DNA of 64,000 nt from Chitinophagales bacterium (lineage in GTDB: Bacteria > Bacteroidota > Bacteroidia > Chitinophagales > JADIYW01): NCBI GenBank assembly GCA_019694955.1, contig JAIBAX010000013.1:1-64000 (forward strand). Direction: 5' to 3'. Position numbers and translations under genes: made by a program. Below are positions 10,416-53,176 of this stretch, one piece after another. Under the pieces are notes generated by a model. The model was not told the origin of the DNA. It saw only the letters and a program-made list of their open reading frames with translations, and made no database searches. How positions within the stretch are numbered: the stretch's first letter is position 1; the number at the start of each line of letters is the position of its first letter.

Positions 10416-12512
10416 TTAATTAATCAAACCTATCGTTCTGGGAATATTCCAGATACTTCTGTACCAGAATTTATACTTGTTCTTTGTTGCCTGTAGTTCT
10501 TCTCTCTCCCAAAAATGCAATTGATGTACGGGATATAAATAACCAAAATGATAGCAAGTATGGTCTGCCCTTTTTTCCGCCACCCACGAAAGCGGATACC
10601 GATAAAATTTCCTTTCCATGGTATCTACAATCGCTAATCCTTCTTCTCTGATGAGCGATGCTTTCAGCAAATAATCTTCTTTACTAAAAGGCAAACCTAA
10701 TTCTTTGGATCTGTGTTGCAAAAGATAACTTAAGGTGCTATACTTATGTTGCGCCCTTAAACCGGTTATCTTAAGTGCCCAATACAATTCCTCCTCCATT
10801 GGATTGAGTGTAAAATTATCCTCAATAGGTTTACATTTTTGCATAAACTCCCTGAGTGGAATAAGGTATTTATCATTCATTGCCGCCAATTCGCTGGAAT
10901 CGGCATCATTCCTGATATAAGGATATGAATATTCAGGGCGTGGGTGAAACTCGATATTAAATTTTCCGGGCATTTCATCTGTTACCGTTTGCGCCACCAA
11001 CACTTTAATCAGGTCTTTGTCTTTGATATATGTTTGCTGCGCATCTGCAACATTAACAAAATACTGCTCAAATGCTTCATTTTCAATGACTTGCCTTGCA
11101 TATTGCAAAGGCTCTTTTTTCAATTTCGCACCATATTCAAAATAATTCCACGACCATCTTGCCACACTCCAGTCAAAAAGCCAGTTGCCCCACTCCCACC
11201 CGGACGTAAAAGTAAGATGACCATCGATCTTTTGAAGGCTGTCGCAATATTCGATATCTGCTAATCTGGCTTGGAGATAGGGAAGTAAAAGCATCGGCAC
11301 AGAGAGATCAAAAGTCACCCAATAGGCCGTTTCCGGGAAGTACCAGGTTTCCCGCTGTTCCATTTCCTTCAGCAGCAAATCCCTCATATGCAACAGATTA
11401 TCGTTTTCATATACGGGTGCATGTTCGTCTAACAAGGAATAAAACATGACGGTATGTATCATGAGGCCATGCTCTTTGGTGAGCAGTTCATTTTCTGCAT
11501 TTCCTGAAACCATCTTATCGGCTTTGACAACATGCTTCCTACTCATTAGTTTCACACCATGCTTACTGAGGATTTTTTGCAGCACTTCTAGTAATGCCGA
11601 TTTTTCCGCCATATCCCCAGCAGAAAATTCGGTAGCAGAAAGTTCGACATTCCAAACATCGAAACCCGCCTGTATCAACCACTCTGCATTTTGTTCCAAC
11701 TGCTTTTCTTTGGTTTTCAATGAAGCCGGAGGACTTTTATACAACTGAAATGCTTTCTGTTGTAGCATGTGCAACGACAAGTCGGCGCCACAAAATATCC
11801 CTCTTTGGTGTGCATAATCTGTAATGGCTTTCGCATGTGGCAGCCAAGTTGCTCTGTCGATGCTTTCCAGAAGATTAAACTCAAAATAATTTTGTCCATT
11901 TCTTGCCAACCAATCGATGTATTCTTTTACGCAAGCAAGTCCACCCGAAAAGTTTGCGTCTAAAAGGCATTCTGTAATTTCAAGTGGGTGCATGGCATGT
12001 ACATGGAAGCCGATTTTATCAAATACTTTTTTGCCTTCAAAAGAAACAAATGTCGGTTTACATCCCTTTGGGATGGATGTATTTCTTGTGTGATAAGAAT
12101 AAAAACCCATTTTTTCCTGCAACATAGCATACAAGCCATTGACCAATCCTTTGGGCGTTTCTGCCTTACATATGGCACCGTTAGTGGCTGTTTGCAACCA
12201 CGAAAAATCCTCGTAAAGTACTGCGGTGTCAAGAATTGACGAACTGACAAGGTTTTTTGTTTGCAATTCCCAATAAGAGCCAGTATTGTTTTCTGCGTTG
12301 AGGGTCGCTTGAATGCCCGCTTTTTCCAATAAAGAAACGACATCTCTTATTCCATTTTGAAAGATGGAATCATTGCTGAGCGTCCGACTATAAATGATAT
12401 TTATGGAATGACTATAGTTGTTTCCATAAATTTTTCCTACGGAAAAAAACACCATCAGTATGAATATTATCTTGTTGGTGTTAGGTATTTTGCCTGATTC
12501 CCTAGTGAACAT
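10416..12512 (-). CDS. Secreted glycoside-hydrolase-like protein
   Basis: From the ATG at 12512 the protein has 698 residues. It begins with a signal-peptide-like segment (hydrophobic IIFILMVFFSVG), then a small alpha/beta domain with a GLVNGLYAMLQEKMGF pattern like the N-terminal domains of GH20 and GH67 enzymes. A TIM-barrel-like region follows (LARNGQNYFEFNL, ITDYAHQRGIFCGADLS, WNVELSATEFS). Many Trp and acidic residues are present. I infer a periplasmic or surface enzyme acting on a glycan, but I cannot name a family or catalytic pair with confidence. An in-frame TTG start at 12536 is possible. It overlaps the upstream small gene by 11 nt, which suggests coupling. Confidence 0.7.
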   Translation of the reverse strand: MFTRESGKIPNTNKIIFILMVFFSVGKIYGNNYSHSINIIYSRTLSNDSIFQNGIRDVVSLLEKAGIQATLNAENNTGSYWELQTKNLVSSSILDTAVLYEDFSWLQTATNGAICKAETPKGLVNGLYAMLQEKMGFYSYHTRNTSIPKGCKPTFVSFEGKKVFDKIGFHVHAMHPLEITECLLDANFSGGLACVKEYIDWLARNGQNYFEFNLLESIDRATWLPHAKAITDYAHQRGIFCGADLSLHMLQQKAFQLYKSPPASLKTKEKQLEQNAEWLIQAGFDVWNVELSATEFSAGDMAEKSALLEVLQKILSKHGVKLMSRKHVVKADKMVSGNAENELLTKEHGLMIHTVMFYSLLDEHAPVYENDNLLHMRDLLLKEMEQRETWYFPETAYWVTFDLSVPMLLLPYLQARLADIEYCDSLQKIDGHLTFTSGWEWGNWLFDWSVARWSWNYFEYGAKLKKEPLQYARQVIENEAFEQYFVNVADAQQTYIKDKDLIKVLVAQTVTDEMPGKFNIEFHPRPEYSYPYIRNDADSSELAAMNDKYLIPLREFMQKCKPIEDNFTLNPMEEELYWALKITGLRAQHKYSTLSYLLQHRSKELGLPFSKEDYLLKASLIREEGLAIVDTMERKFYRYPLSWVAEKRADHTCYHFGYLYPVHQLHFWEREELQATKNKYKFWYRSIWNIPRTIGLIN

Positions 12513-12945
12513 CGCCACCAAAGAATTTCTCCTCAATATAGTCGGCGGCTACTGCTACATCATAAATGGCATTGCTGACTTCTGCAGCTGTGGTCGTTTC
12601 CAATACCAATGCCGATTGGGCAATGATAGATTCCACTGGCGTACCATCGCCAAGCTTATCACTGGTAATAGTAATACTGCAATAACAGCAAGGTCCCGCT
12701 TCTTTTAAGATGCCGTACAGGTTCAAATCTGGGCGATATATACCTGCTCTACTGTTCATATAAACAGTATCTTTACCAAAATATCTACCGGGAACGATCC
12801 AAATATAAACATATTGATAGCGCCAATTACCCTCTTTCAATGGGATGGCGACATCCATTTTGTACGTTCCTGTTGGTTGAATTTCTTCCAATTTGTAGTT
12901 AAACTTTGCAGAAATCTCTTTTAGTGTTTGATGTAATTGTATCAT
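12502..12945 (-). CDS. Hypothetical protein, 147 residues
   Basis: A small soluble acidic protein without a signal peptide. A Tyr/Trp-rich central stretch (NWRYQYVYIWIVPGRYFG) and a Cys-Cys-Tyr-Cys cluster near residues 86-89 stand out. The C-terminal half is Ala-rich and probably helical. I do not recognise the family. Its stop codon overlaps the start of the secreted glycosidase-like gene by 11 nt, and a DinB-like gene ends 18 nt upstream, so all three are probably cotranscribed. Confidence 0.6.
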   Translation of the reverse strand: MIQLHQTLKEISAKFNYKLEEIQPTGTYKMDVAIPLKEGNWRYQYVYIWIVPGRYFGKDTVYMNSRAGIYRPDLNLYGILKEAGPCCYCSITITSDKLGDGTPVESIIAQSALVLETTTAAEVSNAIYDVAVAADYIEEKFFGGDVH

Positions 12946-13559: not shown

Positions 13560-14561
13560 TTGACAAATTCTATTGCTAAAAATAATCATCAGCTACACTC
13601 AGTAGAATGGCTTCGAGGATTTGCCATGCTATCTGTATGTTTTACACATTACAAAATACACTTTGTCACTTCCGGTATTGGGTGGAAACTATTGTTATGG
13701 AATGATTTTGGTGTATCGCTATTTTTTGTCATTTCGGGGTTTGTCATTCCGTACGCTATGTTTAAGAGTGGATATACATGGCGTCAAATTGGTAGGTTTT
13801 TCAAGAAAAGATTCATGCGTGTATATCCTACCTTTTTATGTGGATTTATCCTATCTGTTTTATTAATGTATATTGCCTTTTGGTTTTCTCCATTCCATGC
13901 TGGAGGAGCACCACATCTTACTGCAAAATACATCATCGGTAACCTTTTATTGATTCCCCATTTCTTGCATGAGCAGTGGTACAGTCCTGTGTTGTGGACG
14001 CTCGCCATTGAGGTGCAGTTTTATTTATTCATCGCCCTAGCGTTTCCCTTAATTTTTCATGCAAACAAAAAGATAGGCTTGTTAGCCGTAATTGGATTTT
14101 CCCTCCTACAATTTTCATGTAAAAACGAGTTGATATTTTTTTTCCACGTCATGGTTTTCATGTTAGGTGTAGTTTCCAGTTTATACTTTTTAAAACGGCT
14201 AAATGCTATAGAATGGGGATGCATTTCTATTTTACTTTTAATAGGCATCTATTTTAAAATGGAGATGACATTCAGCAAATTCATTGCGTTACCTGTTGGT
14301 TGTATCATTATTTTATTTGTTCCGTTAAAAAGTAAATTCCTAGCTTTCTGTGGCAAGATTTCTTATTCTTACTATTTGCTACACATCTTGGTAGGCGGTT
14401 CAGTAATAATAGAATTAGGCAAAGAACTCCTAGTATATTTCAAAATTAGTGACCCCATTAACCAAAATATGCTAACGCTTTCCACCATATTTTTATTGAT
14501 TCCGATATCATGGGTGTGGTACAAGCTTTTTGAAGAACCTTTTCAGAAGTTGAAGATTTGA
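13560..14561 (+). CDS. Acyltransferase 3 family membrane protein
   Basis: A 333-residue integral membrane protein of the OafA/acyltransferase-3 type. The N-terminal signature is HSVEWLRGFAMLSVCFTHY, where the catalytic-type His ends the first helix. About ten hydrophobic segments follow, plus the LWTLAIEVQFYL box typical of the family. Such enzymes O-acylate surface sugars or other envelope molecules; the acceptor is unknown. No ATG is available before the conserved WLRG motif, so the start is probably TTG at 13560, with an in-frame stop at 13548-13550 bounding it upstream. The 3' end runs directly into a low-complexity repeat. Confidence 0.92.
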   Translation: MTNSIAKNNHQLHSVEWLRGFAMLSVCFTHYKIHFVTSGIGWKLLLWNDFGVSLFFVISGFVIPYAMFKSGYTWRQIGRFFKKRFMRVYPTFLCGFILSVLLMYIAFWFSPFHAGGAPHLTAKYIIGNLLLIPHFLHEQWYSPVLWTLAIEVQFYLFIALAFPLIFHANKKIGLLAVIGFSLLQFSCKNELIFFFHVMVFMLGVVSSLYFLKRLNAIEWGCISILLLIGIYFKMEMTFSKFIALPVGCIIILFVPLKSKFLAFCGKISYSYYLLHILVGGSVIIELGKELLVYFKISDPINQNMLTLSTIFLLIPISWVWYKLFEEPFQKLKI

Positions 14562-14925
14562 AGATGTGGGAATTTGGGGAATGTGGGAATTTGAAGATGT
14601 GAGAATTTGAGAATGTGGGAATTTGAAGATGTGAGAATTTGGAGAGGTGAGAATTTGGAGATTTGGAGATTTTCGCTAGACGAATTTTGTTCACGGTTCG
14701 CAGATGATGGTTCACAGTGGGAATTTGGGAATGTGGGAATGTGGGAATGTGAGAATTTGGGAATCTGCGTGAACTTTGTGAAAACCTTAGCGTACTTTGT
14801 GGTTAGAGAATATCACAAGACGAATTTTGTTCACGTTCACAGTGAGAATTTAAGGATTTGAAGATGTGAGAATTTGGTAATGTGTCCATTCACCTTTGAC
14901 TATTGACCATTGACAAGCAGTAGCA
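14562..14925. repeat. Low-complexity intergenic repeat tract
   Basis: About 360 bp built from variants of the words GAATTTGAAGATGTG and GGGAATTTGGGAATGTG, interrupted by GTTCACGGTTC-type words and by CATTCACCTTTGACTATTG. Open frames across it are artefacts of the repeat. Related tracts occur at 16776-17030, 53135-53176 and, inverted, at 59997-60085. No gene is seen here. Confidence 0.75.
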
Positions 14926-16783: not shown

Positions 16784-16835
16784 AATTTGTTCGCCGTTCA
16801 CAGAAAATAATTTGGAAATGTGGGAATTTGGAAAT
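16776..16835 (+). repeat. 60-nt direct repeat, copy 1
   Basis: This segment matches 16883-16942 at 58 of 60 positions, offset 107 nt. Copy 1 includes the last codons and stop of the DUF983 gene, so the duplication copied a gene end into the spacer. It contains the same GTGGGAATTTGG words as the 14.6-kb tract. Confidence 0.8.
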
Positions 16836-16882
16836 GTGGAAATGAGAGAATTTCTGAATTAGCATAAGAATTACTGTCAAAA

Positions 16883-16942
16883 GTCTTTGAAATTTGTTCA
16901 CCGTTCTCAGAAAATAATTTGGAAATGTGGGAATTTGGAAAT
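16883..16942 (+). repeat. 60-nt direct repeat, copy 2
   Basis: Second copy of the repeat that begins in the 3' end of the DUF983 gene. It differs at two positions (CGCC to CACC and TTCAC to TTCTC). The rest of the spacer to 17100 is further GGAAATGTG-type low-complexity sequence with no gene. Confidence 0.8.
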
Positions 16943-17072
16943 ATCGCTCTTCGCGATACGTTTAATGTAGAATAATTTTTGTTAACGGTTCACGGAGATT
17001 TGGAAATGTGAGAATTTAAAGATAGTTTACTTTGGTCAGTTCACACACTGTATAGATAAAATGTCGCTATAC

Positions 17073-17090: not shown

Positions 17091-17121
17091 GACGTATTGT
17101 GTCACAAAATAAAATACAAAC

Positions 17122-17152
17122 AAAAAAGGTGCGGCAAAACCGCACCTTTTTT
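17122..17152 (-). terminator. Intrinsic terminator of the adhesin/PorP operon
   Basis: A perfect 13-bp stem (AAAAAAGGTGCGG against CCGCACCTTTTTT) with a 5-nt loop lies 20 nt beyond the stop of the PorP/SprF-OmpA gene. A/T tracts on both sides make it usable from either direction. Confidence 0.9.
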
Positions 17153-17171
17153 ATTGTTTGCATTCGAGCAA

Positions 17172-18734
17172 TTATTCTCCTGAAATAAGGATATCTGCTC
17201 TTCTATTTTTGGCGCGTTCTTCTTCCGTTGCTTGAGCATTAATAGGGCTCTCTTCTCCTGCTGACAGGATGATGACTTCCTTATTAACACCGATACTTTC
17301 TAAATACTTTTTAACGGAAGCCGCCCTTTGTGTAGCCAGTAATAAATTGTACATATTACCGGATTCCTGAGATGCGTTCCCTACAACATAAACAAATGAA
17401 TTTTTAGAAAACTTGTTTAATGGATCTTTCAGCGCATCTAAGTTTGCTTTTGCTTCTTTCGTCAACTCATAAGAATCTAAATTGAAGTACACTGAACCTA
17501 GTTTTTTATAAGAAACAGCTGTTCCGGCCTTATACTCTTTGGTAATTTGTTCCATTTTTTGCAGCTGAGCCGTATTATCCTTCACTTGATTGTTTAGATT
17601 ATTGACATCTTTCTCAACCTTATCTGCCTTTTCTTGTGCTGATTGAGCATCTTGCGCAGCTTTTTCTGCATCTTCTTTTGCTTTGTCTACATCGGCATTC
17701 AAATCCTCTATTTTCTTACGTGCTTCATCCAAATCTTGGAATTCTTTCTCGTATCGCTTGCCAATTTTATAACTGATGCTCACCTCATGAGAATATCCAA
17801 AGGCATTCCTATTTTCTTTTTTCGTTAAGAACTCCATTGAATAGTTTATGGCAAGTCTGCTTTTTATGCCGGCACCTGCTGTTACATTCATACCAGCGGC
17901 TTCGGGTTTTGCAAAGGAGCTACCTGAGCGATATCCACCTCCAAACCATGCCATGTCTTTAAAGTTCACCAAGGCCTCAAGGTCAAATTGAACAGGAATT
18001 GCTTTCACCCAGCGAATAGCCGCTAATGGCTCTAAAGACCAGTTTTTCTTACTACCCAACATGGCTTTGTATGAAGCATAAGCAAACAAATGTCTATTGT
18101 AGTTGAACCTAATTTGATCACTTTCACTGTCTCTGAATTTGAGTTTATTGTTAAACAACTGTGGTGCAACAATACCTACATGAAGTCCTTTCCAGAAATA
18201 ATCAGCACCTGCACTCAAATCGAAAGCGATTGCTCTTTCATTATCCTCAGAAATAGTAGGATCATTAGGGTTCTCAACAATAGCCTCGGTGAAATCAAAT
18301 CTTTGGTGAATCAACCCAGTGGAAATACCAATAGATAATCCATGTGTCTTATCTTGACTGAAAGGTACATGGTAAGCATAACTGAACGAACCACCCAACT
18401 CATGAACAATATGGGTATTATCCGTAAATAAATACCCTCCCAAGCCCACATTGGAAGACTTGATACGTGAGTCGAAAGTTGCAATACCAGTTATGGGTGC
18501 ATCCGGCATGGCAGTCCATTGCTTTTTAAAGTTTATGAACACATTGCCATACTTAGGATCCTGCCCGGCACGGGCAGGGTTATATAGATATCCATTATAG
18601 ATATATTGTGTTGCTACCGGAATCTGTTGTGCGGCCACCTTTAAAAGCGGGCTAAAAGCCACCAAAAGAACCAGGAATATTTTATTGAGTCTCATAACTT
18701 TTGATTTAATATTATTCAAAAAATTCCTTTTCAT
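17172..18734 (-). CDS. PorP/SprF-type T9SS outer-membrane protein fused to an OmpA domain
   Basis: A 520-residue protein. After a signal peptide (hydrophobic FLVLLVAFSPLL, cleavage near AAQQ) comes a PorP/SprF-like beta-barrel of about 300 residues (VATQYIYNGYLYNPARAG, then FKKQWTAMPDAPITG). A charged coiled coil follows (about 330-400). The end is an OmpA-like peptidoglycan-binding domain (SVYFNLDSYELTKEA, NRRADILISGE). PorP/SprF proteins are outer-membrane partners of T9SS substrates; SprF is needed for secretion of the adhesin SprB in Flavobacterium. The OmpA tail would tie this barrel to the cell wall. It starts 5 nt after the adhesin gene stop, so the two are cotranscribed. An internal ATG at 18695 (MRLNKIFLVLL) is an equally good start. 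Confidence 0.93.
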   Translation of the reverse strand: MKRNFLNNIKSKVMRLNKIFLVLLVAFSPLLKVAAQQIPVATQYIYNGYLYNPARAGQDPKYGNVFINFKKQWTAMPDAPITGIATFDSRIKSSNVGLGGYLFTDNTHIVHELGGSFSYAYHVPFSQDKTHGLSIGISTGLIHQRFDFTEAIVENPNDPTISEDNERAIAFDLSAGADYFWKGLHVGIVAPQLFNNKLKFRDSESDQIRFNYNRHLFAYASYKAMLGSKKNWSLEPLAAIRWVKAIPVQFDLEALVNFKDMAWFGGGYRSGSSFAKPEAAGMNVTAGAGIKSRLAINYSMEFLTKKENRNAFGYSHEVSISYKIGKRYEKEFQDLDEARKKIEDLNADVDKAKEDAEKAAQDAQSAQEKADKVEKDVNNLNNQVKDNTAQLQKMEQITKEYKAGTAVSYKKLGSVYFNLDSYELTKEAKANLDALKDPLNKFSKNSFVYVVGNASQESGNMYNLLLATQRAASVKKYLESIGVNKEVIILSAGEESPINAQATEEERAKNRRADILISGE

Positions 18735-18739
18735 CTTAC

Positions 18740-21700
18740 TTATCTTTTAATGGTGATTGCTCCTTTAAACACTTGATCTCCGGAAGTTATCACGTACCAG
18801 TAAGTACCATCAGGTAAGTCTTTACCATTATGTGTTCCATTCCAATCATTCTGATAATTATTGGTTTCTAATAATTTAGCACCTCCGCGTGCATAAATAG
18901 CAAGCGTATAATTATCTAAGTTTTCTAAGTACTTAATGGTAAAGAAGTCATTGATGCCATCACCATTTGGTGTTATCAGGTTAACCGTCTCTGGTTTCGG
19001 ATTAGCTAACACCGTAATGGTAACCTGATCGGTTCCTTTACAGCCAAATTCGTTTGTAACTGTAAGCGTATACACATGAACGCCAATTGGTGGAGTAGCT
19101 ACAGGGTTAGGTAAGTTTGGATGATCCAAATAATCTGACGGCGACCATTCGTATGTTATACCACCAGAGCCAAACAATTGTACACTACTGCCTTCGATAA
19201 TGGTAGTATCTACACCAGCATTCGCAATAGGCGTTGGATGAACTATAACTTCTGTAGTTTGCGGTTCTGAAGAGCAATCTCCAATGGATACCACTACGGA
19301 ATATACTCCTTCATCTGCTACAGTAACGTTTTCTAAGACAGGATTCCTATCTGATGATGTAAACCCATCTGGTCCCGACCACTCATAAGTAGCTCCAAAT
19401 ACATAACTTGCTGTTAGTTGCACATCTTCGCCTTCACAAGCAGGACCATTGTTTGTAGCGGTAATTCCTGTCGGCACACGATTGATATTTACCAATACTG
19501 AAGCTGGGTCGGAAGAACAACCTGTTGTGGTATCTTCCACATAGACGGTATAGAAGCCTTGATTTTCTACTTCCGTAACGTTAGCGATAGTTGGGTTTTG
19601 CTCCATAGAAGAGAATCCATTTGGTCCAGACCAGTGGAATACTATATTTGTCGGATTGTCAACACTTGCAAATAATTTCAACGTATCACCCTCGCATATT
19701 GGACTATTGCTGCTTGGTGCGGCTGATAGCGCCGGTGTAGGATAAACAACAACCGTTGTAGATGCTCTTTCAGATGTACAATTTCCAACAGTTACCGTAA
19801 CGAAATATTCTCCGGCATCAGCAGTTGTAACATTTTGTATAACAAAGTTTTGTTCTGTTGTCGTAAATCCATTAGGACCTGTCCATAAATAAGCACCTCC
19901 CGGAACGGTAGAAGCTGTAACCATAACGTCTTCACCTTCACAAGCCGGCCCGTCATTAGAAGCAATTGGTGCATCTGGTCCATCAACAACGGTAACTACT
20001 AATGATAATTGTTGGCTTGGACAGAATAAGAATCCATCGCTTTCTTGTACATAGAAAATGTAATCACCCGGTTCATCAAATGGACCTACTTCAAAGTCGG
20101 CTACCCAAGCACCATTTCCAGTTGTATCTCCATCCGGTAAGCAAATCTCGTCTACAACATCAAAGTTCCAGTCTAATAATTGTACGCATGAGAAAATATC
20201 TGTGGTAGCTACTTTTATGATGGCATTTCCACCAGTACATACAGGATTGTTTTCAACTGTTGCTCCTGAAACATATGTAAAGTTATCTACAGTCACCCAT
20301 GTTGCCACCACATCAGAACGACAACCTGTTACTTCATCCTCTCTTATCACATAGTATGGTGTATATTGGAACAACGTTGGTGTAGTAAACTCATCACCTA
20401 TGTTCCATAAATCTACTCCTAACGGATCGGAATACCAGTAAACATCACCGCCGTTATCTGTGTCGGTAACTTCTAAGGTAGCACTTTCTCCAGCACATGT
20501 AAATACTGGTGGTACTACAGGAGGTTCAGGTTTTGGATTTACCACAACGGTAGCCATAGAAGCCTCACTCACACAATCGCCTGTTCGTCTTACTGCCCAT
20601 ACAGAACGTGTAATATTGGCAGGGAAAGAGAATACGTTGCCTATATGAACTTCCTGTGTTAAGGCAGCATCCCAATACCATACTATTTCTCCCGGTCCAT
20701 TATCATCTGCCCTAACGGTACCTAACTGGCCAGCACATATCGTATCATTTGTCGTAATCGGTTTAGCTGGCGCCTCCAATACTGTGACTACTAAGGAGAA
20801 CTGCTGACTTGGACAGAATAAGAAGCCATCACTTTCTTGAACATAATAAATATAATCGCCCGGTTCATCAAATGGTCCTACCTCAAAATCTGCTACCCAT
20901 GCACCATTTCCTGTGGTGTCTCCATCTGGTAAACATATCTCTTCTACAACATCAAAATTCCAGTCTAATAATTGTACACATGAGAAAATATCTGTCGTAG
21001 CTACTTTTATGGTCGTTGTTTCTCCCTCACATATCGGGTTCTTGGTTACTGTTGCTGATGAAACATAGCTAAAGTTATCTACGTTCACCCAAGTAACGCC
21101 AACATCTGAACGACATCCTGTTGTTGGATCTTCTTCAATGATATAATATGGCGTGTATTGTGATAATGGTGGTGTCGTAAATTCATCACCAATATTCCAT
21201 AAGTCTACACCTAGTGGATCTGAATACCAATAGATATCTCCGCCGCTGCCTTCCGCTGTTAATGTAGCACGCTCTCCAAAACATATTGTTTCCGGATCAG
21301 CAGTTGGGGTTTCGGGTTTTGGATTCACCGTTACAGTAGCCATAGTTGCTTCACTCACGCAATCGCCATTTCTTCTTACTGCCCATACTGATCGAGTAAT
21401 ATTGGCAGGGAAAGAGAATACGTTGCCGACATGCACTTCCTGTGTTAAGGCAGCATCCCAATACCATACTATTTCACCTGGTCCATTATCATCTGCCCTA
21501 ACGGTACCTAACTGGCCGGCACATATCGTATCATTTGTCGTAATCGGTTTAGCTGGTGCTTCCAAAACGGTAACAACTAAAGAGAACTGCTGGCTTGGAC
21601 AGAATAAGAAGCCATCACTTTCTTGAACATAATAGATGTAATCGCCCGGTTCATCGAATGGTCCTACCTCAAAATCTGCTACCCATGCACCATTTCCTGT

Positions 21701-23026
21701 GGTGTCTCCATCTGGCAAGCATATCTCTTCTACAACATCAAAATTCCAGTCTAATAATTGTACACATGAGAAAATATCTGTCGTAGCTACTTTTATGGTC
21801 GTTGTTTCTCCCTCACATATTGGGTTCTTGGTTACTGTTGCTGATGAAACATAGCTAAAGTTATCTACGTTCACCCAAGTAACACCAACATCTGAACGAC
21901 ATCCTGTTGCTGGATCTTCTTCAATGATATAATATGGCGTGTATTGTGATAATGGTGGTGTAGTAAATTCATCACCAACATTCCATAAGTCAACACCTAG
22001 TGGGTCTGAATACCAATAGATATCTCCACCACTGCCTTCAGCTGTTAATGTAGCACGCTCTCCAAAACATATCGTTTCTGGGTCGGCTGTCGGGGTTGCT
22101 GGTTTTGGATTTACAGTAACAGTAACAGCATCTGATGCACTTGCACAACTACCATTTCTTCTTGTTACCCAAACCGTTAAATCTGTTGTAGGGCTTACTG
22201 TATATTCGTTTCCAATAAACAATTCTGTGGACAAACCTGCATCGGCATACCAAACAATTTCTCCATCGCCGTTATCGTCTGCAACTAGTGTCACTGATGA
22301 CCCTTCACATATTTCTTCATCTGAAACAACTGGTGTGGCTGGTGACTCTACAACTGAGACTACTAAGGAGAACTGCTGACTTGGACAGAACAAGAAGCCA
22401 TCACTTTCTTGAACATAATAAATATAATCGCCCGGTTCATCAAATGGTCCTACCTCAAAATCTGCTACCCATGCACCATTTCCTGTGGTGTCTCCATCTG
22501 GTAAGCATATCTCTTCTACAACATCAAAATTCCAGTCTAATAATTGTACACATGAGAAAATATCTGTCGTAGCTACTTTTATGGTCGTTGTTTCTCCCTC
22601 ACATATCGGATTTTTGGTTACTGTTGCTGATGAAACATAGCTAAAATTATCTACGTTCACCCAGGTAACACCAACATCTGAACGACATCCTGTTGCTGGA
22701 TCTTCTTCAATGATATAATATGGCATGTATTGTGATAATGGTGGTGTAGTAAATTCATCACCAACATTCCATAAGTCAACACCTAGTGGGTCTGAATACC
22801 AATAGATATCTCCACCACTGCCTTCAGCTGTTAATGTAGCACGCTCTCCAAAACATATCGTTTTTGGGTCGGCTGTCGGGGTTGCTGGTTTTCGGTAACG
22901 GCATCTGATGCACTTGTACAACTGCCATTTCTTCTCGTTACCCAAACCGTTAAATCTGTTGTAGGGCTTACTGTATATTCGTTTCCAATAAACAATTCTG
23001 TGGACAAACCTGCATCGGCATACCAA
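18740..23026 (-). CDS. Giant Ig-like adhesin, 3' part after frameshift (gliding-motility-associated C-terminus)
   Basis: This frame encodes the C-terminal ~1,400 residues of a surface adhesin. It consists of near-identical 262-residue modules, each with a CHU_C-associated Ig-like domain (ETICFGERATLTAEG, YWYSDPLG) and a second beta-domain (NPICEGETTTIKVAT). Three more Ig/PKD-like domains with the pattern GPACEGEDVxLTA follow, and then a C-terminal domain beginning NLITPNGDGINDFF. That end is the gliding-motility-associated type B signal used for T9SS secretion of SprB-like adhesins. There is no credible start: the frame opens at a TTG (23026) and its first ~45 residues are out-of-frame translation of a repeat. 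True coding in this frame begins near 22893, where a 13-nt deletion shifts the reading frame from the upstream ORF. Confidence 0.85.
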   Translation of the reverse strand: MVCRCRFVHRIVYWKRIYSKPYNRFNGLGNEKKWQLYKCIRCRYRKPATPTADPKTICFGERATLTAEGSGGDIYWYSDPLGVDLWNVGDEFTTPPLSQYMPYYIIEEDPATGCRSDVGVTWVNVDNFSYVSSATVTKNPICEGETTTIKVATTDIFSCVQLLDWNFDVVEEICLPDGDTTGNGAWVADFEVGPFDEPGDYIYYVQESDGFLFCPSQQFSLVVSVVESPATPVVSDEEICEGSSVTLVADDNGDGEIVWYADAGLSTELFIGNEYTVSPTTDLTVWVTRRNGSCASASDAVTVTVNPKPATPTADPETICFGERATLTAEGSGGDIYWYSDPLGVDLWNVGDEFTTPPLSQYTPYYIIEEDPATGCRSDVGVTWVNVDNFSYVSSATVTKNPICEGETTTIKVATTDIFSCVQLLDWNFDVVEEICLPDGDTTGNGAWVADFEVGPFDEPGDYIYYVQESDGFLFCPSQQFSLVVTVLEAPAKPITTNDTICAGQLGTVRADDNGPGEIVWYWDAALTQEVHVGNVFSFPANITRSVWAVRRNGDCVSEATMATVTVNPKPETPTADPETICFGERATLTAEGSGGDIYWYSDPLGVDLWNIGDEFTTPPLSQYTPYYIIEEDPTTGCRSDVGVTWVNVDNFSYVSSATVTKNPICEGETTTIKVATTDIFSCVQLLDWNFDVVEEICLPDGDTTGNGAWVADFEVGPFDEPGDYIYYVQESDGFLFCPSQQFSLVVTVLEAPAKPITTNDTICAGQLGTVRADDNGPGEIVWYWDAALTQEVHIGNVFSFPANITRSVWAVRRTGDCVSEASMATVVVNPKPEPPVVPPVFTCAGESATLEVTDTDNGGDVYWYSDPLGVDLWNIGDEFTTPTLFQYTPYYVIREDEVTGCRSDVVATWVTVDNFTYVSGATVENNPVCTGGNAIIKVATTDIFSCVQLLDWNFDVVDEICLPDGDTTGNGAWVADFEVGPFDEPGDYIFYVQESDGFLFCPSQQLSLVVTVVDGPDAPIASNDGPACEGEDVMVTASTVPGGAYLWTGPNGFTTTEQNFVIQNVTTADAGEYFVTVTVGNCTSERASTTVVVYPTPALSAAPSSNSPICEGDTLKLFASVDNPTNIVFHWSGPNGFSSMEQNPTIANVTEVENQGFYTVYVEDTTTGCSSDPASVLVNINRVPTGITATNNGPACEGEDVQLTASYVFGATYEWSGPDGFTSSDRNPVLENVTVADEGVYSVVVSIGDCSSEPQTTEVIVHPTPIANAGVDTTIIEGSSVQLFGSGGITYEWSPSDYLDHPNLPNPVATPPIGVHVYTLTVTNEFGCKGTDQVTITVLANPKPETVNLITPNGDGINDFFTIKYLENLDNYTLAIYARGGAKLLETNNYQNDWNGTHNGKDLPDGTYWYVITSGDQVFKGAITIKR

Positions 23027-23660
23027 ACAATTTCGCCATCTCCATTATCGTCTGCAACCAAAGTAACTGACGCTCCTTCGCATATTTCTTCATCTGAAAC
23101 AACTGGCGTGGCTGGTGACTCTACAACTGAGACTACTAAGGCGAACTGCTGACTTGGACAGAATAAGAAGCCATCGCTTTCTTGAATATAATAGATGTAA
23201 TCGCCAGACTCATCAAATGGTCCTACTTCAAAATCTGCCACCCATGCACCATTACCAGTTATATCACCGTCTGGTAGACAAATCTCATCTACTACGTCGA
23301 AATTCCAGTCTAATAATTGTACACATGAGAAAATATCTGTCGTAGCTACTTTTATGGTCGTTGTTTCTCCCTCACATATCGGATTTTTGGTTACTGTTGC
23401 TGATGAAACGTATGTAAAGTTATCTACATTAACCCAGGTAACGCCAACATCTGAACGACATCCTGTTGCGGGGTCTTCTTCAATTATATAATACGGCGTG
23501 TATTGTGCTAAAGGTGGTGTGGTGAATTCATCACCAATATTCCATAAGTCAACACCTAGTGGATCTGAATACCAATAGATATCTCCACCACTGCCTTCTG
23601 CTGTCAAAACTGCTCTTTCTCCTGCACATATTGTTTGTGGATCAGCTGTTGGTGTTGCAG
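19985..23660 (-). repeat. Tandem 786-bp adhesin modules, one shortened to 773 bp
   Basis: A common marker word (ACAGAA within GGACAGAAyAAGAA) falls at 20021, 20813, 21599, 22385 and 23158. The spacings are 792, 786, 786 and 773. The last is exactly 13 short, and this matches the deletion near 22893. Copies differ mostly at scattered, largely synonymous sites, so the array is recent or is homogenised by recombination. Confidence 0.9.
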
Positions 23661-26565
23661 GCTTTGGATTTACTGTAACTTCTACCTCTGTTGGTGTACT
23701 CACTCCACAATCACCTGCCGATTCTGCAACCCAGAATGATGTATTTGCTGTAAGGCTTTGTGTAATATATGGCGATCCGATGAACAATAGATCTGTTAAG
23801 GTATTGTCTGCATACCAATACATGGCACCACCAACGGTTCCTGTTGCAACCAATGTTGCAGTTTCACCGGCGCAGATTTCGTCACCCATAGCCATAGGCG
23901 GATCAACCGGACTTCCAGATGTGACAAATACAGTAACAGGGACTAATCCACTCTCACAATTCGCATCACGTGCTTGAACATAATAAGTATATACACCAGA
24001 ACTGGCAAACGGCCCAACATTTAATTGCCCTATATTTCCAGCATCGGTTTCCAATTCTGTGATACCATCTTGGTCATACCAAATGATATCCCCACTAACG
24101 GCGGATGCATTTAGTACGCCTGATTGGTTAACACATAAGTCTACATTATCGGCATTGGGTTCTTCAACCTCAGGATAAACATAAACATCCCAAGTGGCGA
24201 AATCGCTTTTGCATCCTGTTACATCATCAACAAATCTATAGTAGAGTGTTCTTCTAGAATATACAGAAAATATATCAAAACTGTTTCCTGAATTTAAATA
24301 AGAAGATTCATCTGGGGAGGAGAACCACTGGGTAGTTTGACCCGCAGGTGCTGAAGGAGATGCATTTAAAGTTACCATCTCTGAAGGGCAGAAATAGTCT
24401 GAAGTATTGTCAGGTGCTTGTGGTTTTGTATTTACTGTTACAACCACTTCAGTAGCAGTACTTACACCACAACCTCCGGCAGACTCTGCTACCCAGATGG
24501 ATGTTGTATTGGAAAGGCTTTGCGTTACATATGGCGACCCAATAAATAAAAGATCTGTTAATGCATTGTCTGCATACCAATACATAGCACCGCCAACAGT
24601 TCCTGTTGCAGTAAGCGTAGCAGTCTCTCCAGCACAGATTTCATCATCTGTGGCAACAGGAGGGCTCGTAGGACTTCCGGAAGCGACGAATACTGAAACT
24701 GGAATTAACCCACTTTCACAATTTGCATCGCGGGCCTGAACATAATAAGTATATGTACCTGTGGTGGCAAATGGCCCTACATTTAACTGACCAATATTCC
24801 CAGCGTCTGTTTCTAATTCTGTGATACCATCTTGATCATACCAAACAATATCACCACTAACTGCAGATGCATTTAAAACACCCGATTGATTGATACATAA
24901 ATCGAGATTGTCAGCATTGGGTTCTTCCACTTCTGGATAAACATATACATCCCATGTAGCAAAATCGCTTGCACAGCCTGTAACATCATCCACAAAGCGA
25001 TAATAAACTGTTCTTCTTGAGTAAACTGAAAGTATCTCAAAGCTATTTCCCGAATTAAGGTATGCCGCTTCATTGGGTGAAGAAAACCATTGGGCAGTTT
25101 GTCCAGCAGGTGCAGAAGGTAATGCATTCAATGTTACTGACTCAGATGGGCAGAAATACTCAAATGTATTTGAAGGTGCTTCTGGTTTTGGATTAACATT
25201 TACGTCTACTGAACCTGTTGATGATAGACAACCATTAAAATCTTCTACTATATAATATGTTTGATTAGTAGTTAGAGTAGGAGTAGTATATGGGTTACCC
25301 ACAAATAGTAAGTTTGTAAGTGCAGCATCACTATACCAATTCATTGCACCTCCATTTCCTGTGGCTGTCAAAGTACCACTTGTTCCTTCACAAACATCGA
25401 TATCATTTGCAGTAGGCGCTGAAATTGTCAAATCAGGATTTACTATGATTTGTGTTCTACTACCCTCACATCCTGTGGAAGGATCTGTTACTGAAACATA
25501 AAATGCTTGTGTTGCGCCAATATTAGGTGTAGTAAATGAAGTACCATTCCAAATAGCCACCCCACCAACAGGAACAGAATACCAATTAAATTGTGCGTTT
25601 GAAACGGTAGATGTTGCTGTTAATATGGCTTGTCCATTTATACATGTGCTAACCGGACTTGTGGCGGTTGGTGCCGCAGGTGGTGTTGTCATGTTTATTG
25701 TAATGGCTCTAGATGGGCCAACACATGATCCTTGTTGCTCAGCAACATAATATGTGGTGGTACCAGCGAGTGGTGGAGTTGTAAAGGTTGATCCTGTTTC
25801 AACGGCTGTCGTCAAGTCATTGGCAGAAGTCATCCAAACAAAATTATTTCCCGGTTGAGAAAGTCCTGAAGTAACCGTAAGTGTGGTAGAATTCCCCGGG
25901 CATCCGAGTGGGGCAGGATTAGCTACAGTTGGTGTAGGTAATGGAGAATAAGAAAGTGTAACATTAAAACTCACTGTCGCATCCCCTAAGTTATAAGTAA
26001 CGGGAAATGTTCCTACAGAAAACCCTGTTATGTTAAAACTTCTGTTTACAATTCCGGAATAGTTATCGTCTCCCGTTCCTAAACAACCTGCTGCGTTATC
26101 ATAATATGCATCGTCAGCATCGGAGGGACAGAAGCCTGCACCGGGGCAACAGCCCTGATCTTCTTCCCATGATTGCATTTCGAAAGAAATACTTCCCTGA
26201 CAAACTTCAGTATTGGAATAAACTAAGCCACTCAATGATGTTGAACCGGCGTCTGTTGTTTCATCAATTTTATGAATAACTGGCCCGGTGTAACCTGCAC
26301 CGTTATAACCTATGCGATACCGCATCCTCGGGTCTGGAGCACTGGTTGCTACACAACTTCCAAGAATTACAGTACCATCCCCACAAGGGTAGTTCCAAGA
26401 CATTCCAGTTACATTGACTGAAACATCCATTAACCTTTGTGCTTGGATGTTAAGGGTGGATAGACATAAAAGTAAAATTACACCTATACATATGTGTAAT
26501 CGTTCAGGTAATTTAGGCTTCCAATTCCACTGGAGATACCTTGGCTTTTGACAGTTCAATTCCAT
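22831..26565 (-). CDS. Giant Ig-like adhesin, 5' part with signal peptide
   Basis: This frame of 1,244 residues starts with a long basic leader and a hydrophobic signal segment (ICIGVILLLCLSTLNIQAQ). A unique N-terminal beta-domain with several Cys follows (to about residue 210), then Ig-like CHU_C-associated domains. These include a 254-residue module present twice, from about 23.66 to 25.19 kb, and the first copy of the 262-residue module. It ends in about 20 nonsense residues right after SDAVT, where every other copy reads SDAVTVTVNPKPATPTADP. The missing 13 nt explains the shift. Together with the downstream frame it would be one protein of about 2,600 residues, a cell-surface adhesin exported by T9SS with the adjacent PorP/SprF protein. 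As read, the product would be truncated and lack its secretion signal. Confidence 0.88.
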   Translation of the reverse strand: MELNCQKPRYLQWNWKPKLPERLHICIGVILLLCLSTLNIQAQRLMDVSVNVTGMSWNYPCGDGTVILGSCVATSAPDPRMRYRIGYNGAGYTGPVIHKIDETTDAGSTSLSGLVYSNTEVCQGSISFEMQSWEEDQGCCPGAGFCPSDADDAYYDNAAGCLGTGDDNYSGIVNRSFNITGFSVGTFPVTYNLGDATVSFNVTLSYSPLPTPTVANPAPLGCPGNSTTLTVTSGLSQPGNNFVWMTSANDLTTAVETGSTFTTPPLAGTTTYYVAEQQGSCVGPSRAITINMTTPPAAPTATSPVSTCINGQAILTATSTVSNAQFNWYSVPVGGVAIWNGTSFTTPNIGATQAFYVSVTDPSTGCEGSRTQIIVNPDLTISAPTANDIDVCEGTSGTLTATGNGGAMNWYSDAALTNLLFVGNPYTTPTLTTNQTYYIVEDFNGCLSSTGSVDVNVNPKPEAPSNTFEYFCPSESVTLNALPSAPAGQTAQWFSSPNEAAYLNSGNSFEILSVYSRRTVYYRFVDDVTGCASDFATWDVYVYPEVEEPNADNLDLCINQSGVLNASAVSGDIVWYDQDGITELETDAGNIGQLNVGPFATTGTYTYYVQARDANCESGLIPVSVFVASGSPTSPPVATDDEICAGETATLTATGTVGGAMYWYADNALTDLLFIGSPYVTQSLSNTTSIWVAESAGGCGVSTATEVVVTVNTKPQAPDNTSDYFCPSEMVTLNASPSAPAGQTTQWFSSPDESSYLNSGNSFDIFSVYSRRTLYYRFVDDVTGCKSDFATWDVYVYPEVEEPNADNVDLCVNQSGVLNASAVSGDIIWYDQDGITELETDAGNIGQLNVGPFASSGVYTYYVQARDANCESGLVPVTVFVTSGSPVDPPMAMGDEICAGETATLVATGTVGGAMYWYADNTLTDLLFIGSPYITQSLTANTSFWVAESAGDCGVSTPTEVEVTVNPKPATPTADPQTICAGERAVLTAEGSGGDIYWYSDPLGVDLWNIGDEFTTPPLAQYTPYYIIEEDPATGCRSDVGVTWVNVDNFTYVSSATVTKNPICEGETTTIKVATTDIFSCVQLLDWNFDVVDEICLPDGDITGNGAWVADFEVGPFDESGDYIYYIQESDGFLFCPSQQFALVVSVVESPATPVVSDEEICEGASVTLVADDNGDGEIVWYADAGLSTELFIGNEYTVSPTTDLTVWVTRRNGSCTSASDAVTENQQPRQPTQKRYVLESVLH
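23660..25190 (-). repeat. Two-copy 762-bp adhesin module
   Basis: The word ATTGTCTGCATACC occurs at 23803 and 24565, a spacing of 762 bp (254 codons). The flanking protein sequence is nearly the same in both copies (MYWYADNALTDLLFIGSPYV, then FCPSE and a long Ig-like stretch). It lies immediately N-terminal to the 786-bp array. Confidence 0.8.
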
Positions 26566-41441: not shown

Positions 41442-43571
41442 TTAAAATACCAATAATTTACGTGTGCCAAAACCAACGCCGTCATTGATGTTAATTAAGA
41501 GATTTCCTTTATATCCCTTTGGTGTTTCTAATTGAAAATCATTATATCCTTTATTGTAATCTAATTGCATCACATTCAGTACCTTTCCGGTAATATCCAT
41601 TAATTGTACTGTTAGAATACCTGATTTTTCTCCATCATAAGTGAGGTGAAATTGATTGCTGGTAGGATTTGGGAAAATATTAAGTCTATCTTCTCCCAAT
41701 AAATTATAGTTAATACCTGTAACCACAGAATTTCTAATATTTATATTTTCGAGATAAAGGTTATTGGCATAATTGCTCACTCCCCTAAAAGTGATATACA
41801 ATTCATTGCTTCCAATATAAGGAATTAAGCTAATGGAATCTGTCTTCCATTGGTTAGCTGCTGTTGGGATAAAATCCTGATCTGTATTGGCTGAGGATGC
41901 CAAGTCTGTGCCGAATTTCCTCCACACTCTTTGTGGCGTTCCAGAGCAGCCCGCTTGTACCCATATCTCCAAAGTATCAGATAATATTCCATTGGTAGCA
42001 TCTTCATATTGCGCATATGCTCTATCAAAAATAAGTCTTGGGTTTGTTGAGCCTACCAAATTTATTGCCGGAAGGGTAAACTCATCTACTGCACCAATAT
42101 ATGGATAATTGAAATAATCCATAAAAAGGGAATAAGTGCCAGTCTTTTTAGCCCTATTTGTTCTCACCCATGAAGTATCGGGATCTGATTTCGTTAACTC
42201 GAAAGTTGTTCCTGGAAAGGCACTTTCAAAACCATCAGAGAATGGATATACCCCAACGCCAGTTGCAACATTGATTGCTCTTGTAAGTGTTTCGCCAGGG
42301 TTGATAACATCTGCTACTCCATTAACGGTAAGTATTTTAGCGTAGAAAGTAGCATTGCCGACAGGATAAGTAATTGATGGCAGGGTGACGTTGCTAAACT
42401 TCCCAGATGACAATGTTCCTGAGATATTGACTGTCTGTGAAGTACCGCCTTGGAAACCATACTCTACGGACAAACTTGTTACCGTTATTGTACCTGTATT
42501 TTTTATTCTAATCATAGGCTTTTGCAAACCACCACAATAGACCTTCTCTGAAGGATTCCCGATATTTATAATTCTTGCATCTAAAACATCGCCGGGAGAG
42601 TTACAACCGTTCGACGTTTGTAGGGAAGAACGTGATGAATTTAAGACTGCTAACATTTTGGTACATTGACCTACCGTAAACATATCCATACATCTATCGT
42701 CTGAATAGTCCATGTAGTCGTTGAACATATCACCGCCGGCTGCTGTATTGCTACATGAGTTTTGAGGATATGAAGGGCAGCCATAGTTTTCATCCGCTTG
42801 GTTATTGGTGTCATTAATTCCGTCAGAGCCAGAACAGGCACCACCGTCATCACCCCAAATATGATACAAACCCAACCAGTGCCCCACTTCATGGGTAGTG
42901 GTTCTACCTAAATTATATGGTCCTGAGGTTATGCCAAATGAGGAGAAAAGTATTACAACACCATCTGTTGCGGCAGCTTGTCCCGGGAATTGAGCATATC
43001 CTAGCAGTCCTCCTCCTAAATTACATACCCAAAGATTTAGATAACTATCTCTTGGCCATGCGTCTGAACCACCTTGTGCCGTTTTCTTAACAGCGTCATT
43101 ATCGGAGAATGATGACTTTGTTGTCAACACCCTCAATATTCCATTGGTTGGAAGATTATTCGGATCTCTTTGTGCCAGACAGAATTTTATCTTCATCCCA
43201 CCAGCTTTACTCTTAAATGGTCCTGGTGTATCGGTTGTATCGGCATTTAAACGGGCATAGTCTTCATTTAGGATTCGTATCTGCTCAAGGATACGCTCTT
43301 CGGGAATATTTTGCGCAGCCGTCTTATACACCACATGAACAACGACCGGAATAACGATGGTATCAGATCCACCTAATCTATAGACAGAATTGCCGTGCTT
43401 CTCCATCCAAATATTTGCAATACGCTCTGCTTGCTCTGTTTCTTGTATTAATTCGGGATGTTCTTGTAACATTCTAGCCCGCACTTCCATGGTTCCACAA
43501 CGGCTAACCTGTGATTTTACAGTAAGAAACAATCCTGCAAAAAGCACACAAAAGGCAAATATTTTCTTCAT
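41442..43571 (-). CDS. Secreted M43-type (pappalysin-like) zinc metalloprotease, paralogue A
   Basis: A 709-residue protein. A signal peptide (FAFCVLFAGLFLTVKS) is followed by a propeptide-like stretch. The metalloprotease domain has zinc motif HEVGHWLGLYH at 227-237 and a Met-turn region around YMDYSDDRCMDMF. A CARDB-like/beta-sandwich region (SLSVEYGFQGG) comes next, then a MAM- or jelly-roll-like domain. The type A T9SS C-terminal sorting domain opens IFPNPTSNQFHLTYDGEK and ends GFGTRKLLVF. The protein should be exported through T9SS and act on extracellular protein. It is the last of four tandem paralogues read right to left, each separated by 57-99 nt. Confidence 0.95.
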   Translation of the reverse strand: MKKIFAFCVLFAGLFLTVKSQVSRCGTMEVRARMLQEHPELIQETEQAERIANIWMEKHGNSVYRLGGSDTIVIPVVVHVVYKTAAQNIPEERILEQIRILNEDYARLNADTTDTPGPFKSKAGGMKIKFCLAQRDPNNLPTNGILRVLTTKSSFSDNDAVKKTAQGGSDAWPRDSYLNLWVCNLGGGLLGYAQFPGQAAATDGVVILFSSFGITSGPYNLGRTTTHEVGHWLGLYHIWGDDGGACSGSDGINDTNNQADENYGCPSYPQNSCSNTAAGGDMFNDYMDYSDDRCMDMFTVGQCTKMLAVLNSSRSSLQTSNGCNSPGDVLDARIINIGNPSEKVYCGGLQKPMIRIKNTGTITVTSLSVEYGFQGGTSQTVNISGTLSSGKFSNVTLPSITYPVGNATFYAKILTVNGVADVINPGETLTRAINVATGVGVYPFSDGFESAFPGTTFELTKSDPDTSWVRTNRAKKTGTYSLFMDYFNYPYIGAVDEFTLPAINLVGSTNPRLIFDRAYAQYEDATNGILSDTLEIWVQAGCSGTPQRVWRKFGTDLASSANTDQDFIPTAANQWKTDSISLIPYIGSNELYITFRGVSNYANNLYLENINIRNSVVTGINYNLLGEDRLNIFPNPTSNQFHLTYDGEKSGILTVQLMDITGKVLNVMQLDYNKGYNDFQLETPKGYKGNLLININDGVGFGTRKLLVF

Positions 43572-43628
43572 ACTAATTAATTAAAGAGTAAAAATAACAA
43601 AATAATTTCACCCTACAAAATGTAAGTT

Positions 43629-45806
43629 TTAGTCCATAAGGATAATACTCCTTGAAAACCTGCCATTTTTGTTGATAACTGTAACGAATAAATTGCCTGT
43701 AGCGTGCGTTAAGTCTTTTACTTCGAAGGTATTTATCCCCTTATTTACTTCTCTCTCTAAAAGTGTCAGTAATCTTCCGGTAATATCCCTTACTTCAAAA
43801 GTCACCAATTCTGTTCCTTCACTAAAGTATTTGATATAAAATTGCCCATTTGCCGGATTGGGATATAGCGAAAACGCTTGTTCACTTAATTGTGATGATT
43901 GTATGCCTGTGGGAACGCTATATTTCAAGTTTAAGTTATCTAAATAAAGATTATTAGCAAATAGGTTGATGCCTCTAAAAGTTATGTACACTTGACTTCC
44001 AGTAAACGAACTTAAATTAATAGAATCTGCTTTCCATTGGTTGGTGGTTGGTACAAAGAATTGATCGGTGTTGGGTGCTGTCTTTAAAAAAGCACCCCAC
44101 TTTTTAAAGATACGAACAGGACTTCCGCCACAGCCATCCTTCACCCATATTTCTAATGTATCCGTTAGGACTCCATTTTGTGCATCTTCATACTGTGCAT
44201 AGGCTCTATCAAAGGTGAGTTTCGGACTAATTTTTCCAGTCAAATCCAAAGGAGGAAGGGTAAATTCGTCGATGGCGCCTTCAGTTGGGTAATCATAGAA
44301 ATCAAAAAACAGGGAATAAGTTCCCGTTTTGGCGGCATAATTGGTACGTTTCCAAATAAACTGCTCATTTGAACTATTAAGCTCATATATATTACTGGGA
44401 AAAGCCTCTCCTTCAAAGCCATCAAAAAACACAGGTGTGCCCACAAAATCATTTGATTTTACATTTAGCGTTTTTGACACTTTAAGACCACTATCTATTG
44501 TATCTGCTTCGCCATTGATAGCTGATATATAGCAATAGATATCGGCAAATCCTGTATCAGAAATTAGGGTTGGCAACTCAATTTGTGCAATGCCATTCAC
44601 TGCAATACCATCTTCATATAGATATGTTTGAGGCGTTTCGCCTTCCCGCCCATAAGTCAGCTCTACTGAAGATATGTCTACATTACCGGAATTGCTCAAT
44701 ACCACTACAGGGTTGGGAGATTGCTCACAATAGAAAAGTCCACTTGGTTTTATCAAACGCCAAATCTTGGCATCTTGTTCTGCATAAGTAGGATTTCCAT
44801 TACAAGCGTTGGAATAGCGCAACGATGCTCTGGTCGAGTATAATGTGCCCAGCATTCTATTCACTTGTCCTTGAGAAAACATATTCATGCCATCATCGGA
44901 GGAATAATCCATATAGTTCATATACATGATACCGGGTGCATTGGGTGTACATTTATCCGTTCTTAATCCGGATTGCACACCTCTGGATGCACTACATTGG
45001 TTAGGCGTATCATCTACACCATCTGAACCACCACAACCGGAAAAACCTGCTCCACAAGTTTCTACTGGGCTGGTGTCGTCGCCCCAAATATGCCTTAATC
45101 CCAACCAGTGACCTACTTCATGGGTAGTTGTTCTTCCTTTATTATATGGTGCTGCGGTTCCATATCCGAAGGAGGAATAAGAAATTACAACACCATCTGT
45201 GCTAGCATCGCCTCCCGGGAATTGCGCATATCCAAGTAGTCCAGTTGCTCCAAAGTTAACCGTCCAAAGATTCAAGTATTGATCAGCCGGCCAAGCATCA
45301 TCTCCACCGGATGATGCAAATTTCATCTTATTATCTCCCGTAAAGGAATTGACAGTGGTTTGCTTACGGATAATTCCCGTGGTAGGATTGCCGTCAGGAT
45401 CGAACGTTGCCAAGCAAAACTTCACTTTTATTCCGGCAGCGAAAGGACGAAGTCCTGAATAGGTATTATTTGTATCGGCATTCAATCTAGCATAATCCTT
45501 ATTTAGGATATCTATTTGTTCATACACTCTTGCATCAGCAACATTTTGTGCTGCGGTTTTATATATTACATGCACTACTACGGGAATGATGATGGTATCA
45601 TTCTCAAATCCCCTGAGTTTACCTTGTTTTATTTGTTCCTCTGCCAGTTCGGCAAGTTTGGCAGCTTTTTGATATTGAAATTGCAGTTGCGAGTTTGAAG
45701 CAATTTGCTCATGAAATAATTTCATGGTACCACATTGGTCGTCCTGAGCAGAAATATCTGAAAACGACCAAACCAAAATACTAATGAGAAAGAGAAAATG
45801 TTTCAT
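43629..45806 (-). CDS. Secreted M43-type zinc metalloprotease, paralogue B
   Basis: A 725-residue protein with the same architecture: signal peptide (FLFLISILVWSFSDISA), protease domain with HEVGHWLGLRH at 229-239 and Met-turn MYMNYMDYSSDDGMNMF, beta-sandwich region and a T9SS C-terminal sorting domain (LYPNPANGQFYIKYF). The opening domain shares motifs VVHVIYKTAAQNV and LNKDYARLNADT with the other copies, so the four arose by duplication. A Cys-rich insert near 245-290 (DTSPVETCGAGFSGCGG) is longer than in A. The -7-like element TACTTTTG lies upstream, so it may have its own promoter. Confidence 0.95.
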   Translation of the reverse strand: MKHFLFLISILVWSFSDISAQDDQCGTMKLFHEQIASNSQLQFQYQKAAKLAELAEEQIKQGKLRGFENDTIIIPVVVHVIYKTAAQNVADARVYEQIDILNKDYARLNADTNNTYSGLRPFAAGIKVKFCLATFDPDGNPTTGIIRKQTTVNSFTGDNKMKFASSGGDDAWPADQYLNLWTVNFGATGLLGYAQFPGGDASTDGVVISYSSFGYGTAAPYNKGRTTTHEVGHWLGLRHIWGDDTSPVETCGAGFSGCGGSDGVDDTPNQCSASRGVQSGLRTDKCTPNAPGIMYMNYMDYSSDDGMNMFSQGQVNRMLGTLYSTRASLRYSNACNGNPTYAEQDAKIWRLIKPSGLFYCEQSPNPVVVLSNSGNVDISSVELTYGREGETPQTYLYEDGIAVNGIAQIELPTLISDTGFADIYCYISAINGEADTIDSGLKVSKTLNVKSNDFVGTPVFFDGFEGEAFPSNIYELNSSNEQFIWKRTNYAAKTGTYSLFFDFYDYPTEGAIDEFTLPPLDLTGKISPKLTFDRAYAQYEDAQNGVLTDTLEIWVKDGCGGSPVRIFKKWGAFLKTAPNTDQFFVPTTNQWKADSINLSSFTGSQVYITFRGINLFANNLYLDNLNLKYSVPTGIQSSQLSEQAFSLYPNPANGQFYIKYFSEGTELVTFEVRDITGRLLTLLEREVNKGINTFEVKDLTHATGNLFVTVINKNGRFSRSIILMD

Positions 45807-45823
45807 AACTAATAGATTAAATA

Positions 45824-45831
45824 CAAAAGTA
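45824..45831 (-). promoter_or_regulatory. Promoter -7 element of protease paralogue B
   Basis: Minus-strand TACTTTTG, 17 nt ahead of the ATG at 45806, fits TAnnTTTG. Confidence 0.5.
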
Positions 45832-45867
45832 GTAAATTATTTTACTACTGCATTTCCATTAGCTATT

Positions 45868-48024: not shown

Positions 48025-48038
48025 ATATATCTTTTTTA

Positions 48039-48046
48039 CAAAGATA
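48039..48046 (-). promoter_or_regulatory. Promoter -7 element of protease paralogue C
   Basis: Minus-strand TATCTTTG, 14 nt ahead of the ATG at 48024. Confidence 0.55.
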
Positions 48047-48071
48047 ATCGTTTTGGTAGAAACATATACTC

Positions 48072-48101
48072 AAAAGGGTCAGAAAATACTCCGACCCTTT
48101 T
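48072..48101 (-). terminator. Terminator after protease paralogue D
   Basis: Arms AAAAGGGTC and GACCCTTTT with a 12-nt loop, 22 nt past the stop of the upstream protease gene and before paralogue C, so D and C are probably separate transcripts. Confidence 0.75.
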
Positions 48102-48123
48102 TAAAATAATATGAGATTAAAAA

Positions 48124-53134: not shown

Positions 53135-53176
53135 GGTTCACGGTTCACAGTTTACGGTTCACGGTTCACCGTTCAG
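53135..53176. repeat. GGTTCACGGTTCAC low-complexity repeat
   Basis: About 42 bp of imperfect 7-nt units (GGTTCAC, GTTTACG, CGTTCAG). It overlaps the 3' end of the small gene at 53166, so that gene's last codons and stop come from the repeat. The same words occur at 14690-14725 and 16785-16995. Confidence 0.7.

Follow-up and report, generated by a model that had tools for sequence, protein, structure and literature searches.

The adhesin locus and its partner gene

The locus occupies the minus strand of the window, by which we mean the whole 64,000-nucleotide stretch of DNA that was analysed. It holds a large repeat-rich gene, read in the assembly as two overlapping open frames, and the gene of an outer-membrane protein. 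The main features are the following.

22831-26565, minus strand: 5' adhesin fragment, opening with a hydrophobic signal peptide, followed by 11 Ig_7 stretches and, after about 20 out-of-frame residues, a stop
18740-22893, minus strand (open to 23026): 3' adhesin fragment, with 8 Ig_7 stretches, Ig_2 and CHU_C/TIGR04131
22831-23026, minus strand: overlap of both open frames, exactly 196 nt
22892-22893, minus strand: break point at the end of an Ig_7 domain, with 13 nt fewer than in the sister modules
18743-18982, minus strand: type B T9SS sorting domain (TIGR04131 / PF13585), now apart from the signal peptide
17172-18734, minus strand: intact gene located 5 nt downstream of the adhesin, encoding a PorP/SprF-family outer-membrane protein with a fused OmpA domain
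17119-17155, minus strand: terminator-like hairpin past the PorP/SprF-OmpA gene (consensus scan only)

The 5' frame is listed as an ORF of 1244 aa, and the 3' frame comprises 1428 codons when counted from its first possible TTG. Pfam assigns 11 stretches of Ig_7 (Ig-like domain, CHU_C associated) to the former, and 8 such stretches, an Ig_2 domain and the CHU_C type IX secretion domain to the latter. Among NCBIfam models, TIGR04131 matches the 3' frame only, with 67.7 bits against a cut-off of 35, the best score among the 22 in the genome; no sorting domain was found in the 5' frame by Pfam or NCBIfam. The Sec signal peptide of the 5' frame was judged from its hydrophobic N-terminal segment by reading the sequence.

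T9SS substrates require a C-terminal domain in addition to a Sec signal peptide (PMC12618676). At this locus the two do not occur in one polypeptide. As the signal peptide is present in the 5' frame only and the C-terminal domain in the 3' frame only, the gene as read is a broken member of the type B substrates and not a working one. The preliminary description had held that the secretion signal is lost from the N-terminal product, and the position of the sorting domain agrees with this. The adhesin belongs to a known class, of which it is a frameshifted but otherwise ordinary representative.

Type B substrates rely on a cognate PorP/SprF shuttle, whose gene often lies immediately downstream (PMC12618676), and they bind their PorP-like partner at the cell surface (PMC9143113). 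The neighbouring gene matches the PorP/SprF family with 196.7 bits (cut-off 90.55, NCBIfam), and its product is likely the shuttle or anchor of the adhesin. No terminator was predicted between the two genes by the consensus scan, consistent with one transcript. We interpret the intact locus as a two-gene unit, in which a gene of about 2,600 codons encodes a T9SS type B surface protein and the second gene its PorP/SprF-OmpA partner. The assembly also encodes the T9SS translocon protein SprA (2454 bits, 2482-codon frame) and 7 PorP/SprF-family genes.

In architecture and gene order the locus resembles that of SprB of Flavobacterium johnsoniae (TIGR04131 / PF13585), which has a Sec signal peptide, a long repeat array and a type B C-terminal domain, with a PorP/SprF-family gene directly downstream; this likeness makes no claim to a role in gliding. 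On the other hand, the gene studied here is split by a frameshift, its repeats are Ig_7 (PF19081), and its PorP/SprF partner carries a fused OmpA domain. From this analogy and from the domain make-up, the encoded protein is likely an adhesin.

The combination of a PorP-like barrel with an OmpA-like domain is also found in the PorP-PorE-PG1035 complex of Porphyromonas gingivalis, where the barrel binds a type B substrate and the OmpA-like domain binds peptidoglycan (PMC9143113). Unlike that complex, both parts are here one polypeptide (17172-18734), as if the separate functions of PorP and PorE had been joined, and this form is kept in six relatives; the interaction of the protein with the adhesin is putative.

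Several other features were observed in the window. Four tandem paralogues of about 710 aa (41442-50244, minus strand) combine an M43 (pappalysin-like) metalloprotease with a type A T9SS tail (Por_Secre_tail). Degenerate intergenic 8/16-bp repeats of the ATTTGGAAATGTGGGA type lie at 14556-14764 and 16809-17015, and a genome search for their 18-letter pattern gave 18 sites on 12 contigs, with none for the reversed control pattern; they are a dispersed minisatellite-like family in this genome. The heptamer GGTTCAC is present about 6 times at 53135-53175, upstream of a PBP-like gene, and GTTCAC-like words also occur near 14.7 and 16.8 kb, interspersed with the 8-bp repeats. Finally, a 706-aa ORF at 10416-12536 (minus strand) has no Pfam match.

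The break in the repeat array

The two frames had been described as joining where one module is 13 nt short, and both the ORFs and the junction alignment confirm it. When the junction is aligned with three sister modules, a single 13-nt gap appears directly past the codons for SDAVT, so the assembly sequence does contain an inactivating lesion. Start-to-start spacings in the repeat family are 792, 786, 786 and 773 nt, with 762 nt for an older pair. Only 773 is indivisible by 3, and the 762 and 792 spacings keep the frame. The earlier figure of 773 was correct; 786 is not the spacing of all the other copies, since 762 and 792 also occur. Modules were found on the adhesin's contig only, and the idea of unresolved copies on other contigs was rejected on this ground.

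Compared with the upstream frame, the downstream one is shifted by -1. Past SDAVT, the residues of the upstream frame (ENQQPRQPTQKRYVLESVLH, followed by the stop) are out of frame, as expected from the earlier description of this end as junk. Near the break, the downstream frame offers three TTGs, one ATG (22726) and one GTG (22660) as starts, none with an obvious ribosome-binding site or signal peptide; that this frame has no credible start, as previously proposed, is thus upheld. The broken domain matches positions 1-78 of the 84 in the Ig_7 (PF19081) profile, and an intact sister matches 1-84, which places the deletion at the domain end and linker. No second lesion is present across the approximately 2,600 codons of the adhesin.

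Selection, relatives and the age of the break

Between module copies, dN/dS is 0.03-0.07 on both sides of the break, with mostly synonymous differences. For the broken module against its neighbours, the values are 0.04-0.06 downstream and 0.07 upstream of the break. Such low values on either side indicate that both evolved as translated protein, and purifying selection among the module copies is strong, as judged from these comparisons. Changes unique to the broken copy (2 synonymous, 1 nonsynonymous) give no amino-acid excess and are too few to show relaxation. Together with the lack of a second lesion, the dN/dS values imply that the break is either recent or an artefact; if it is in the organism, it would be recent.

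In six genomes of a sister genus, the C-terminal part of the adhesin is 45-47% identical and the adjoining PorP/SprF-OmpA gene 36-39% identical, in the same gene order. Five of the six have the whole gene on a contig, and in each it is a single frame (1429-1883 aa) that begins with a signal-peptide-like segment and ends in a type B tail. From these five uninterrupted orthologues, the unbroken adhesin is most likely the ancestral state. One orthologue (L033, 3456-7748 on G006:C12) contains two exact internal copies of 422 nt, spaced by 822 nt, as left by a module that was recently duplicated.

Genes of the same class in the same genome provide a further comparison. The assembly (4.1 Mb, 103 contigs) contains 22 type B sorting domains by profile search. 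Of the 21 genes besides the adhesin, 15 are complete single frames with a signal-peptide-like N-terminus, the longest of 2887 aa, and the other 6 are truncated by the end of a contig; 18 of the 21 were checked as frames, and three short contig-end cases rest on coordinates. A split frame is seen only in the adhesin studied here.

Explanations for the split gene and their meaning

Three options had been raised for the split, namely real inactivation, a phase-variable state and an assembly error, and real inactivation is the best supported of them. We give a probability of about 0.64 to the 13-nt deletion being real and having recently inactivated an ordinary T9SS type B adhesin, and we infer that the organism itself, not just its assembly, carries the deletion. 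A single deletion at the end of one Ig_7 domain would recently have shifted the reading frame. The 5' product could still enter the periplasm through Sec, but without the sorting domain T9SS would not export it; the 3' part would have the sorting domain, but no proper start or signal peptide. Because neither product bears both signals, surface display should fail. The deletion would thus abolish display of the protein, with the adhesin off in the sequenced genome.

Alternatively, the gene may be intact in the organism, with an assembly or consensus error in the repeat array. We regard this as unlikely, although several observations point in its direction. The array has exact repeats of up to 138 nt (98-138 nt around the break), which make short-read assembly difficult here. 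The draft of 103 contigs has no 16S match; genomes derived from metagenomes often lack one, and mixed strains can be merged in them. With 6 of the 22 type B genes cut at contig ends, such genes appear hard for assembly. The adhesin gene has no decay elsewhere, and this intactness of the remaining gene is also expected from an artefact.

Against an error, bases specific to the broken copy are found within about 30 nt of the break on each side of the junction alignment, so that one short read would cover all of them, and they argue against a simple collapse of repeats. No word of 10-16 nt that spans the junction recurs elsewhere in the window. Neither the alignment nor a word search in the window found microhomology or a shared word at the break that could have led to a graph or overlap misjoin. 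In addition, the assembler's response to difficulty in such genes seems to be to stop the contig, and it left 15 others, including long ones, intact; a 13-nt gap is also atypical of base-calling errors. It is on the copy-specific flanking bases and the handling of the other type B genes that an assembly error, as first suggested, becomes the less likely option. A literature search on frameshifted T9SS adhesins and on repeat misassembly in MAGs found nothing on point.

The phase-variable state is not supported by the sequence. A repeat scan of the window found no tandem or simple repeat at the break, and slippage-type phase variation is rejected accordingly; inverted pairs near the break are short, with 73-86% matches typical of chance, which rejects an inversion switch as well. 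Junction microhomology is also absent, and the break has none of the repeat, invertible element or other switch of a phase-variable contingency gene. A reversible off state could still arise by gene conversion or unequal crossing over with the near-identical modules, on and off forms then being present in the population. Over long stretches the sister modules, which lie in direct orientation, agree to 95-100%, so recombination could in principle remove the broken one, and the frame-keeping lengths together with the 422-nt duplication of the relative show that such arrays recombine. However, recombination is a general property of repeats and does not amount to a dedicated switch, and the data give no sign of two forms or of the same deletion recurring, which leaves this explanation improbable. 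Its wider version, with type B adhesin arrays as a reversible on/off store in which a module deletion silences display and recombination with a neighbour restores it, would be more doubtful still.

Finally, a programmed -1 frameshift joining the frames in translation, or the production of two separate proteins, is scarcely credible: the frames do overlap in the -1 relation, with A-runs of 4 and 5 nt inside the overlap, but this contains no X XXY YYZ slippery heptamer, the RNA around the break folds no better than shuffles (z -0.41) and so offers no stimulatory structure, relatives and sister copies keep an uninterrupted frame, and the 3' part has no start bearing a signal peptide. The lack of simple repeat, microhomology and slippery heptamer thus makes both slippage and programmed frameshifting unlikely.

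A real loss-of-function allele, our preferred reading, would resemble the frameshifted pseudogenes of other repeat-rich bacterial adhesins, where one small deletion breaks an otherwise conserved coding sequence, and would differ from them in that the rest of the gene is undamaged. Annotation can easily turn a split gene of this type into two proteins, and long reads are required for the repeat arrays of draft genomes. The importance of the allele would rise only if both forms coexisted in a population. If real, it adds another natural case of lost function in a large surface protein, where the intact partner gene and the undamaged remainder would show how recent the loss is.
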